A stretch of DNA of 46,854 nt. Source: Epulopiscium sp. Nele67-Bin005 (GTDB lineage: Bacteria > Bacillota > Clostridia > Lachnospirales > Cellulosilyticaceae). Every line of letters starts with the position of its first letter. Position 1 is the first letter of the stretch. The position numbers were made by a program, and so were the translations under genes. Location: assembly GCA_002007365.1 (NCBI GenBank), contig LNZR01000006.1:1-46854 (forward strand), read 5' to 3'. The notes under the pieces were generated by a model. The model was not told the DNA's origin. It saw nothing but the letters and a program-made list of their open reading frames with translations, and did no database searches. Below, in pieces: positions 42,384 to 45,006 of the stretch.

Positions 42384-42393
42384 GAAATTTAAA

Positions 42394-42432
42394 AATAGGT
42401 TGTAAATTAAAAAGTTTACAACCTATTTTTTT
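42394..42432 (+). terminator. Intrinsic terminator after chemoreceptor 2 (repeat family copy 1)
   Basis: AATAGGTTGTAAA (42394-42406) and TTTACAACCTATT (42415-42427) form a 13-bp stem followed by T. The same terminator recurs at 43737 and 44969 behind the two HTH-nuclease genes. Confidence 0.9.
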
Positions 42433-42490: not shown

Positions 42491-42525
42491 TCTTAACCAT
42501 ATAAAAACATATGATTTTAAAAAAG

Positions 42526-42555
42526 TTTACAGCCTATTTTTGGGTGTGATATACT
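42526..42555 (+). promoter_or_regulatory. Promoter of HTH-nuclease gene copy 1
   Basis: TTTACA (42526-42531), 18 bases, TATACT (42550-42555). The -35 lies in a lone copy of the terminator 3' arm (AAAGTTTACAGCC), which is unpaired here because the 5' arm is absent. Confidence 0.6.
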
Positions 42556-42578
42556 AAAATAAAACTGAGGGGGTTAGT

Positions 42579-43724
42579 ATGGTTAGCGAAAGACTAAAGT
42601 TTCTTAGAGAAAAGAAAGATTTAACTAAAAAGGATATGGCACAATATTTGGGTGTATCTGATAGAAAATATGGATTGTTGGAAAGTGGAAGCAACCATTT
42701 AAATGAGGAGCAAATTAGAAGTTTGGCAAAATATTTTGAGGTAAACGCTGACTATTTGTTGGGAATGAGTGATACTCCAAATCATGAACGCCAAATAGTT
42801 GACTCAACAAGAAATATTTTTTCAAATAGACAAGTAAAGGATACGTTGTTAAAGGCATTGTTATCGACAAAAGAAGCAAGGCTTGAGTTGTATAATGCGC
42901 TAAATGGTACAAGCTATACGATGGAAGATGAATTAATAGACATGACATTAGATGATGTAATATTTTTGCAAATTAAAAATGATGTGTCGTTTTTGATAGC
43001 GAATACACTAAATTTATATGAGCATCAATCTTCTTACAATCCAAATATGCCACTTAGAAATTTGTTTTATTATGTAAAACAGTTGGAACAACTTGTTAGA
43101 GGGAAAAATATGTTTAGTTCAAAATTAATAGAACTAGATACCCCGATTTTTGTTGAGCTATATAATGGCAAAAGGAAAAGACCAGAAGTATCAACAGTAA
43201 AATTGTCAGATGCATTTAAGGCAAAAGGAGAAAAGGGAGAAAATATTGGAGGATTGGAACTAACGGTAACAGTCTATAATATTAACAAAGGGTATAATCA
43301 AAATTTGATGAAGAGTTGTGAAATATTAGATGGATACTCATTTTTAGTAGATAGATTAAGACATTACGAAAGTAAAGGATATGATAAGGTAGAAGCAGTA
43401 AAAGGAGCTATTCATGATACTATTTCAGAAGATAAAATAGCAGAGTTTTTAAAGAAGAAAGGAAGTGAAGCAATGGAATTTATTTTGGCAGAGTATGACG
43501 CACTATCAGTACAAGAAGATTTTATTGCAGAAGGAATTGAGATTGGAAGAGAGCAAGGAAGAGAAGAAGGGAGAGAAGAAGGGATAGATATTGGAATAGA
43601 ACGAGGTAAGCTTTTGGCAGCAAAAAATCTGCTGGATATACTTGATGATAAAACAATTGCTGAACGAATGGAGTTACCAATAGAAATAGTGGCTGAGATT
43701 AGAAAACAAAATAGCAAAATATAA
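42579..43724 (+). CDS. HTH (XRE)-PD-(D/E)XK nuclease protein, Rpn-like, copy 1
   Basis: This 381-residue protein begins with an XRE helix-turn-helix (about 1-62: LKFLREKKDLTKKDMAQYLG, then LNEEQIRSLAKYFEVNADYLLG). A Rpn/PDDEXK-type domain follows, with a family-typical KNDVSFLIANTLNLYEHQSS: Asp135 and Glu148-x-Gln150 fit the metal site. NPNMPLRNLFYYVKQLE follows. The C-terminus is a charged GREQGREEGREEG repeat and helix, as in Rpn proteins. E. coli Rpn nucleases degrade DNA and act in phage defence, held in check by a small product from an internal start. The N-terminal HTH fusion is unusual and suggests autoregulation. GAGGGGG precedes ATG 42579. Confidence 0.75.
   Translation: MVSERLKFLREKKDLTKKDMAQYLGVSDRKYGLLESGSNHLNEEQIRSLAKYFEVNADYLLGMSDTPNHERQIVDSTRNIFSNRQVKDTLLKALLSTKEARLELYNALNGTSYTMEDELIDMTLDDVIFLQIKNDVSFLIANTLNLYEHQSSYNPNMPLRNLFYYVKQLEQLVRGKNMFSSKLIELDTPIFVELYNGKRKRPEVSTVKLSDAFKAKGEKGENIGGLELTVTVYNINKGYNQNLMKSCEILDGYSFLVDRLRHYESKGYDKVEAVKGAIHDTISEDKIAEFLKKKGSEAMEFILAEYDALSVQEDFIAEGIEIGREQGREEGREEGIDIGIERGKLLAAKNLLDILDDKTIAERMELPIEIVAEIRKQNSKI
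43473..43724 (+). CDS. Possible internal-start C-terminal product of copy 1
   Basis: An in-frame ATG at codon 299 has AAAGGAAG 8-9 bases upstream (43458-43465). It would give 83 residues covering MEFILAEYDALSVQ and the GREEG repeat region to the C-terminus. By analogy with intragenic Rpn small proteins it could be an oligomerisation-domain antitoxin. The purine-rich site could also be coding sequence only, so this is an inference. Confidence 0.3.
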   Translation: MEFILAEYDALSVQEDFIAEGIEIGREQGREEGREEGIDIGIERGKLLAAKNLLDILDDKTIAERMELPIEIVAEIRKQNSKI

Positions 43725-43736
43725 TAATTATATAGA

Positions 43737-43787
43737 AATAGGTTGTAAATTAAAAAGTTTACAGCCTATTTTTTGGTGTGATATACT
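43737..43787 (+). promoter_or_regulatory. Terminator of copy 1 overlapping the promoter of copy 2
   Basis: AATAGGTTGTAAA (43737-43749) pairs with TTTACAGCCTATT (43758-43770, one G-U), followed by four T: a terminator. Its 3' arm TTTACA (43758-43763), 18 bases and TATACT (43782-43787) also make a promoter identical in layout to that of copy 1. The two functions share DNA. Confidence 0.65.
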
Positions 43788-43810
43788 AAAATAAAACAGA
43801 GGGGGTTAGT

Positions 43811-44956
43811 ATGGTTAGCGAAAGACTAAAGTTTCTTAGAGAAAAGAAAGATTTAACTAAAAAGGATATGGCACAATATTTGGGTGTATCTGATAGAAAA
43901 TATGGATTGTTGGAAAGTGGAAGCAACCATTTAAATGAGGAGCAAATTAGAAGTTTGGCAAAATATTTTGAGGTAAACGCTGATTATTTGTTGGGAATGA
44001 GTGATACTCCAAATTATGAACGCCAAATAGTTGACTCAACAAGAAATATTTTTTCAAATAGACAAGTAAAAGATACGTTGTTAAAGGCATTGTTATCGAC
44101 AAAAGAAGCAAGGCTTGAGTTGTATAATGCGCTAAATGGTACAAGCTATACGATGGAAGATGAATTAATAGACATGACATTAGATGATGTAATATTTTTG
44201 CAAATTAAAAATGATGTGTCGTTTTTGATAGCGAATACACTAAATTTATATGAGCATCAATCTTCTTACAATCCAAATATGCCACTTAGAAATTTGTTTT
44301 ATTATGTAAAACAGTTGGAGCAACTTGTTAGAGGGAAAAATATGTTTAGTTCAAAATTAATAGAACTAGATACCCCGATTTTTGTTGAGCTATATAATGG
44401 CAAAAGGCAAAGACCAGAAGTATCAACAGTAAAATTGTCAGATGCATTTAAGGCAAAAGGAGAAAAGGGAGAAAATATTGGAGGATTGGAACTAACGGTA
44501 ACAGTCTATAATATTAACAAAGGGTATAATCAAAATTTGATGAAGAGTTGTGAAATATTAGATGGATACTCATTTTTGGTAGATAGATTAAGACATTACG
44601 AAAGTAAAGGATATGATAAAGTAGAAGCAGTAAAAGGAGCTATTCATGATACTATTTCAGAAGATAAAATAGCAGAGTTTTTAAAGAAGAAAGGAAGTGA
44701 AGCAATGGAATTTATTTTGGCAGAGTATGACGCACTATTAGTACAAGAAGATTTTATTGCAGAAGGAATTGAGATTGGAAGAGAGCAAGGAAGAGAAGAA
44801 GGAAGAGAAGAAGGGAAGGACATTGGGAGAGAAGAAATGAAACTTTCTATGATAAAAAACTTGCTGGATATACTTGATGATAGTAAAATTGCAGAAATAG
44901 CAGAGTTACCAATAGAAATAGTGGCTGAAATTAGAAAACAAAATAGCAAAATATAA
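43811..44956 (+). CDS. HTH (XRE)-PD-(D/E)XK nuclease protein, Rpn-like, copy 2
   Basis: This gene is a tandem duplicate of copy 1 at an offset of exactly 1232 bases for promoter, start and terminator. The HTH and nuclease domains are nearly identical (changes such as NHERQ to NYERQ, KRKRP to KRQRP and DALSVQ to DALLVQ). Differences are concentrated after the GREEG repeat: IDIGIERGKLLAAKNLL in copy 1 is KDIGREEMKLSMIKNLL here, and TIAERMELPIE is KIAEIAELPIE. The internal ATG equivalent is at 44705. Catalytic residues are retained. A strong GAGGGGG site precedes ATG 43811. Confidence 0.75.
   Translation: MVSERLKFLREKKDLTKKDMAQYLGVSDRKYGLLESGSNHLNEEQIRSLAKYFEVNADYLLGMSDTPNYERQIVDSTRNIFSNRQVKDTLLKALLSTKEARLELYNALNGTSYTMEDELIDMTLDDVIFLQIKNDVSFLIANTLNLYEHQSSYNPNMPLRNLFYYVKQLEQLVRGKNMFSSKLIELDTPIFVELYNGKRQRPEVSTVKLSDAFKAKGEKGENIGGLELTVTVYNINKGYNQNLMKSCEILDGYSFLVDRLRHYESKGYDKVEAVKGAIHDTISEDKIAEFLKKKGSEAMEFILAEYDALLVQEDFIAEGIEIGREQGREEGREEGKDIGREEMKLSMIKNLLDILDDSKIAEIAELPIEIVAEIRKQNSKI
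44705..44956 (+). CDS. Possible internal-start C-terminal product of copy 2
   Basis: The ATG matches that at 43473 of copy 1, with the same AAAGGAAG upstream. The 83-residue product would contain most of the copy-specific residues, including the KDIGREEMKLSMIKN segment. Whether it is translated is not shown by sequence. Confidence 0.3.
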   Translation: MEFILAEYDALLVQEDFIAEGIEIGREQGREEGREEGKDIGREEMKLSMIKNLLDILDDSKIAEIAELPIEIVAEIRKQNSKI

Positions 44957-44968
44957 TCATTATATAGA

Positions 44969-45006
44969 AATAGGTTGTAAATTAAAAAGTTTACAACCTA
45001 TTTTTT
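44969..45006 (+). terminator. Intrinsic terminator after HTH-nuclease copy 2
   Basis: AATAGGTTGTAAA (44969-44981) and TTTACAACCTATT (44990-45002), then T to 45006. It is the third member of the terminator family. No -10 follows at the position used in copies 1 and 2. From here to 45240 the sequence is AT-rich with only the dispersed element at 45087. Confidence 0.9.

Follow-up and report, generated by a model that had tools for sequence, protein, structure and literature searches.

Two adjacent genes of Epulopiscium sp. Nele67-Bin005, here called HTH-Rpn, most probably represent a tandem-duplicated, XRE-fused Rpn toxin–antitoxin unit of the gene-within-gene type, in which an 87-bp block of the tail would have been exchanged; judged from sequence comparison and from analogy to published Rpn systems, this reading has a probability of roughly two in three. 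In Escherichia coli, RpnL is a toxic nuclease, and RpnS, a C-terminal piece of RpnL made from an internal start, blocks its own RpnL, with the specificity set by four-residue repeats; RpnS also occurs as a separate gene, Rpn arrays arise through tandem duplication, and a C. difficile Rpn makes a small protein too (Zhong et al. 2023, PMC10327210). Most of what the initial annotation proposed is an application of this published system.

Tandem gene pair and its surroundings

The window, i.e. the whole stretch of 46,854 nucleotides that was analysed (contig LNZR01000006.1), belongs to a draft genome of 90 contigs and 89% completeness, and carries the two open reading frames of 381 codons each on the forward strand at an exact offset of 1232 bases (Table 1). 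The homologous unit spans 42520–43774 for copy 1 and 43752–45006 for copy 2, with a repeated hairpin at the bounds. The proposed tandem duplication is thereby borne out, tandem Rpn arrays being published as well. The hairpin with its T run was absent from the output of a terminator scan. Its exact matches in the genome are confined to the HTH-Rpn locus, and a dispersed element was therefore ruled out. The right arm of the hairpin before each copy coincides with the first promoter hexamer of that copy.

Table 1. Positions of the features of the HTH-Rpn pair in the window
Feature	Copy	Position	Strand	Basis
HTH-Rpn (RpnL-like), 381 aa	1	42579–43724	+	
HTH-Rpn (RpnL-like), 381 aa	2	43811–44956	+	
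Promoter-like TTTACA-18-TATACT	1	42526–42555	+	Consensus match only
Promoter-like TTTACA-18-TATACT	2	43758–43787	+	Consensus match only
XRE-type helix-turn-helix, residues 4–61	1	42588–42761	+	Pfam HTH_19 E 2e-9, above cut-off
XRE-type helix-turn-helix	2	43820–43993	+	
Putative PD-(D/E)XK-type nuclease region, residues 85–253	1	42831–43337	+	Invariant D135/E148, EHQS motif versus RpnA, predicted fold
Shine-Dalgarno-like AAAGGAAG	1	43458–43465	+	Duplex energy -6.3 kcal/mol
Shine-Dalgarno-like AAAGGAAG	2	44690–44697	+	Duplex energy -6.3 kcal/mol
Putative internal gene, 83-residue RpnS-like product	1	43473–43724	+	Start position conserved in relatives, stand-alone cassettes
Putative internal gene, 83-residue RpnS-like product	2	44705–44956	+	As copy 1
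12-nt/four-residue repeat tract GIEI GREQ GREE GREE G	1	43533–43583	+	
Divergent (putatively exchanged) stretch, codons 336–364	1	43584–43670	+	29/87 nt differ; pS 0.50, pN 0.29
Divergent (putatively exchanged) stretch, codons 336–364	2	44816–44902	+	
Hairpin and T run; likely terminator and duplication boundary	behind 1	43736–43771	+	
Same hairpin	behind 2	44968–45003	+	
Same hairpin, behind upstream chemotaxis receptor gene		42391–42430	+	

With bodies about 99% identical in a draft genome of this completeness, one gene present in two strain variants could have been assembled into a chimeric tandem; the unit bounds, however, lie cleanly in the repeated hairpins, the copies form a direct tandem in which each has its own promoter-like site, and such arrays, besides being published, are present in relatives (e.g. 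L039 and G005:C96), so that we consider a chimera very unlikely. The neighbouring genes encode EF-G, EF-Tu, a class I tRNA synthetase, UvrD/PcrA, and chemotaxis receptors, and no defence genes adjoin the pair. The surroundings of the locus are not a defence island; a role in defence, as first suggested, is a candidate function.

XRE helix-turn-helix domain

As indicated by the Pfam matches of HTH_19 (37.6 bits; cut-off, 30.2) and HTH_3 (33.8; cut-off, 23), the N-terminus of both long products is a complete XRE/Cro-type repressor domain. Autoregulation by this domain through the promoter of the unit is plausible as a candidate function, because a promoter-like site precedes each copy, with its first hexamer overlapping the hairpin.

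The fusion of a complete XRE repressor domain in front of Rpn seems unusual. None of the homologues retrieved at E up to 1e-30 from 392 genomes of the order together with class and phylum samples (~1,300 genomes in all) had an unbroken alignment across the HTH; two of the frames are long (G228:C117, 780 codons; G299:C25, 409 codons) and might carry N-terminal domains of other kinds. A match in G220 to query residues 3–368 was discarded as a second fusion, as it crosses four stop codons and its open reading frame is without an HTH. In the plasmids and phages searched, the Rpn body and the HTH were matched only separately, and among viral contigs no close relative was found with the window protein as query, while a search with the family profile gave one distant match to the body. 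PADLOC returned generic HTH models and no Rpn match for the HTH-Rpn proteins, and no literature on an HTH-Rpn fusion was found. As a separate observation, one contig region (L018/L028, G058:C89:104-3568) contains a tandem series of six or more genes for small XRE repressors, each ending in DYL.GRSDNP.

Nuclease body and Rpn family membership

Body and tail of HTH-Rpn belong, by sequence comparison, to the Rpn family (COG5464/TIGR01784), in agreement with the initial annotation. The direct match of TIGR01784 to the tail of the window protein is weak (22.2; curated cut-off, 52.1), and the same model matches 24 of the 46 sequences of our alignment (44 relatives and both window copies) at E up to 0.001, with the best at 2.2e-13. 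PDDEXK_2 matches two relatives, one of which, L006, stays just under the cut-off (25.1 vs 27.4 bits). When the profile of the 46 sequences was compared with E. coli RpnA, a match was obtained (E 5.7e-7; probability, 92%) that took in EHQS and the final two helices. The predicted structure has a pLDDT of about 90 across most of the nuclease region, and the fold comparison of residues 85–253 retrieved mainly PD-(D/E)XK nucleases (McrC, EndoMS, Can2, and Shedu), although weakly (Z up to 5.6). From the TIGR01784 and PDDEXK_2 matches, the RpnA profile match, and the predicted fold, we infer that the full-length HTH-Rpn is a PD-(D/E)XK-type DNA nuclease. The PD-(D/E)XK domain named at the outset can thus be retained by way of the relatives, the RpnA profile, and the predicted fold, but not as a direct finding, since a Pfam search of both window proteins found no nuclease domain.

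Asp135 and Glu148 are invariant in the alignment, and E148-H-Q150 aligns with the EHQ of RpnA, making the motif a variant of the type E-x-Q, not E-x-K; D135 and E148-x-Q150 likely constitute the active site. A fusion acting mainly as a DNA-binding regulator, in which the nuclease-like domain would serve dimerization or effector sensing without cleavage, is favored by the confident XRE domain, but the invariance of the two acidic residues in all 46 sequences renders it highly improbable. Apart from the pair, a single rpn-like gene was found in the genome of the window (L003, G000:C22, 797–1660); it is frame-broken within its 12-nt repeat tract, and its tail continues in another frame, a break that may be real, phase-variable, or a sequencing error.

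C-terminal tail module

Three tail helices are predicted at residues 288–350 (long), 357–364, and 368–380, and the repeats begin at residue 319, 20 residues past Met299. HTH-Rpn hence has the arrangement characteristic of Rpn, namely a C-terminal three-helix module with the repeats in the first helix, 8–20 residues after the internal start, and the C-terminal module with four-residue repeats described in the initial annotation is recognized in the repeat tract and these helices. The predicted tail is in line with the three-helix crystal structure of RpnAS (PMC10327210); a direct sequence match of the tail to the solved structure of the RpnA small protein was not obtained. In the fold comparison, residues 335–380 resembled DNA-binding helix-turn-helix domains, a likeness that has been noted for RpnS by the authors of PMC10327210. 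In L034 (2–1270), a single open reading frame contains the tail module duplicated in the same reading frame.

Internal start for a putative small protein

Both copies contain the in-frame ATG anticipated earlier, with AAAGGAAG ending 7 nt upstream, and an 83-residue product would be made from each. The strength of anti-Shine-Dalgarno pairing ahead of boundary-region start codons was evaluated for the 46 sequences. The mean pairing energy there was -9.65 kcal/mol, as compared with -1.8 for 236 ATGs in the body, and a pairing of -5 kcal/mol or better preceded a boundary start codon in 45 of the 46 (98%) vs 10% of the body ATGs. When the best candidate of each scanned interval was considered, 40 of the 46 genes had no other interval equally good. 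Across the family, the site also surpassed synonymous shuffles (combined p 5e-16, a value overstated by the relatedness of the sequences). For the window genes taken alone, the pairing of -6.3 is unremarkable relative to synonymous shuffles (p 0.2–0.3), is equalled in 16% of the other intervals, and is reached by 7.5% of the in-frame internal ATGs in the genes of the window; the median at neighbouring gene starts is -10.75, and the proven internal site of RpnA amounts to -8.5 on the same scale. The support for the internal start therefore comes from the relatives more than from the modest Shine-Dalgarno site of the window itself, and it is as a position conserved family-wide that the proposed start gains weight. 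Copy 2 has, in addition, a second in-frame ATG at 44837 (codon 343), absent in copy 1, with a stronger Shine-Dalgarno pairing (-7.3), which would give a 39-residue product.

Further evidence is provided by tails that stand alone. Behind L004 (G005:C96), the closest relative without the HTH (48% identity), two extra tail-only copies are arranged head to tail, and each of them opens with AAAGGAAGYGTTACWRTG, corresponding to the internal start site (AAAGGAAG..RTG), and closes at a stop codon. In L032 and L023, a tail gene lies just behind rpnL with the Shine-Dalgarno sequence and start kept, and in L029 it lies upstream; the tail is also matched by numerous short open frames from the same family, several of them at contig ends. 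Since these stand-alone tails of relatives open at the predicted internal start, they show the tail, on comparative grounds, to be an independent unit beginning there. No stand-alone tail cassette adjoins the window pair itself. In the L004 region (G005:C96:30533-34351), another rpnL, with a broken frame, lies behind the two tandem tails at 2449–2973. Another subfamily has four tail modules on one strand within ~14 kb (L105, G015:C15:18500-35500), and in three of these a strong GGAGG precedes an ATG located shortly ahead of the repeats.

It is conceivable that the internal ATG is unused in a plain Rpn duplication, the tail being an oligomerization module only and the mosaic of the copies neutral. 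The Shine-Dalgarno site in the window is indeed no better than the amino acids predict, and purine-rich repeats readily yield such sites. We regard this explanation as unlikely, given that the position and the Shine-Dalgarno sequence are conserved in the 46 sequences, that the stand-alone genes of relatives start there, and that the C. difficile Rpn makes a small protein. The conservation and the analogy to RpnS suggest that an antidote gene is probably nested within the gene of each nuclease copy.

Divergent block and its origin

The copies differ at 39 of 1146 coding positions, with 29 of the differences falling in 43584–43670 and 10 in the other 1059 positions (Fisher p = 9e-27); in 5000 random placements of 39 differences, the densest 87-bp interval held at most 14. 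The divergent stretch begins directly after GREQ-GREE-GREE-G, which confirms the initial observation of near-identical copies that differ behind the GREE repeats. The proposed divergence of the tail module applies to its middle, but not to the first 37 and last 17 codons of the small protein, which are nearly identical.

Silent sites in the block are about 15 times more divergent than elsewhere (pS, 0.50 vs 0.034), and codons with silent differences make up 6 of 29 in the block vs 7 of 352 outside (p = 1e-4). Because silent differences are concentrated in codons 336–364, the block has a history different from the rest, which points to its exchange by recombination, introducing an older or foreign segment, or to the homogenization of everything else. 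The remainder of the coding sequence shows a deficit of nonsynonymous changes (3, vs 7 synonymous; p = 7e-4), from which the bodies of both copies are judged to be under purifying selection and kept working.

It had been supposed that the modules diverged in place under diversifying selection, separating two pairs so that each small protein recognizes only its own nuclease. A high pN in the stretch (0.29 vs 0.0035 elsewhere) agrees with this supposition, as does the published behavior of RpnA/RpnB and of repeat-number variants, which are neutralized by their own small protein only (PMC10327210). The silent sites, however, are equally concentrated, pN/pS in the block is 0.57 and not above 1, and the start of the first helix and the repeat number are alike in both copies. 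Since the silent sites diverge too, the block was judged not to have been caused by in-place selection, and divergence in place as a whole is quite improbable. With recombination as the preferred origin, the persistence of individual exchanges may depend on selection at the protein level, which leaves the silent sites unexplained.

A donor of the block was not found in the same genome, the other rpn tail of which (G000:C22) is only 48% identical. Comparable mosaics occur as paralogue pairs: L017 and L027 are identical, including silent sites, over about 170 codons and unrelated behind the REEG repeats, and L011 and L024 have bodies 98% and tails 53% identical. The location of the junction at the repeat tract in both the window pair and L017/L027 suggests that the 12-nt repeats are the recombination point.

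Proposed mechanism and implications

In the proposed mechanism, the long product would combine the XRE repressor domain with a PD-(D/E)XK-type DNA nuclease, and its last 83 residues would also be made alone from the internal Shine-Dalgarno/ATG site. By analogy to RpnL/RpnS, the 83-residue form would attach to the tail of the long protein and hold the nuclease inactive, and the promoter of the unit may be a binding site for the XRE domain. The tail is a modular cassette, copied head to tail in relatives as stand-alone genes from the Shine-Dalgarno/start site; in the window pair, recombination would have exchanged 87 bp of it, reaching from where the repeat tract ends to the second tail helix inclusive, the rest being young or homogenized. 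Because the long and short forms share sequence, a single exchange would alter the toxin tail and the antitoxin together, and might create a new matched pair in one step.

Toxin–antitoxin evolution poses the open question of how toxin and antidote can change and yet avoid a lethal mismatch; where one gene is nested in the other, both would change together. Natural pairs that agree in the body but have exchanged tails, together with tail cassettes that begin at the internal start codon, make a one-step origin of new independent pairs testable, and with the XRE fusion there would also be a nuclease that potentially controls its own promoter. As a tentative generalization, antitoxin tails might be exchangeable cassettes bounded by the internal start and the repeat tract, with stand-alone tail genes arising as copies behind rpnL and entering it by recombination while the pair stays matched; the XRE-fused pair would have originated in this way and would have self-regulation in addition.

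Comparison with known systems

HTH-Rpn shares with E. coli RpnA–E and RpnP2 the EHQS nuclease motif, the C-terminal three-helix tail with four-residue repeats (predicted in HTH-Rpn), the internal Shine-Dalgarno/ATG site ahead of the repeats (seen in HTH-Rpn at the sequence level), and tandem duplication. Second tail copies stand alone in some E. coli strains, as in the relatives of HTH-Rpn. Unlike the E. coli proteins, HTH-Rpn has the XRE domain in front, and its putative small product comprises 83 residues vs 49 in RpnA (from Met244); furthermore, the HTH-Rpn copies differ by a swapped internal block, whereas the E. coli variants differ by repeat number. Among the related full-length Rpn proteins (L004 of G005:C96 and 40-odd others), L004 is 48% identical to HTH-Rpn over residues 83–347 of the latter and has the internal start site (AAAGGAAG..ATG) in common with it; these proteins are without the XRE domain, and L004 has its two additional stand-alone tail cassettes, both in contrast to the window pair. 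With the small XRE repressors (RstR-like, NF041951; PezA-type antitoxins), residues 1–73 of HTH-Rpn match over the whole repressor, including its usual end DYLLG.SD.P, with a score of 41.8 for the RstR family NF041951, under the cut-off of 80; in HTH-Rpn, unlike in these repressors, the domain is fused to a nuclease body.
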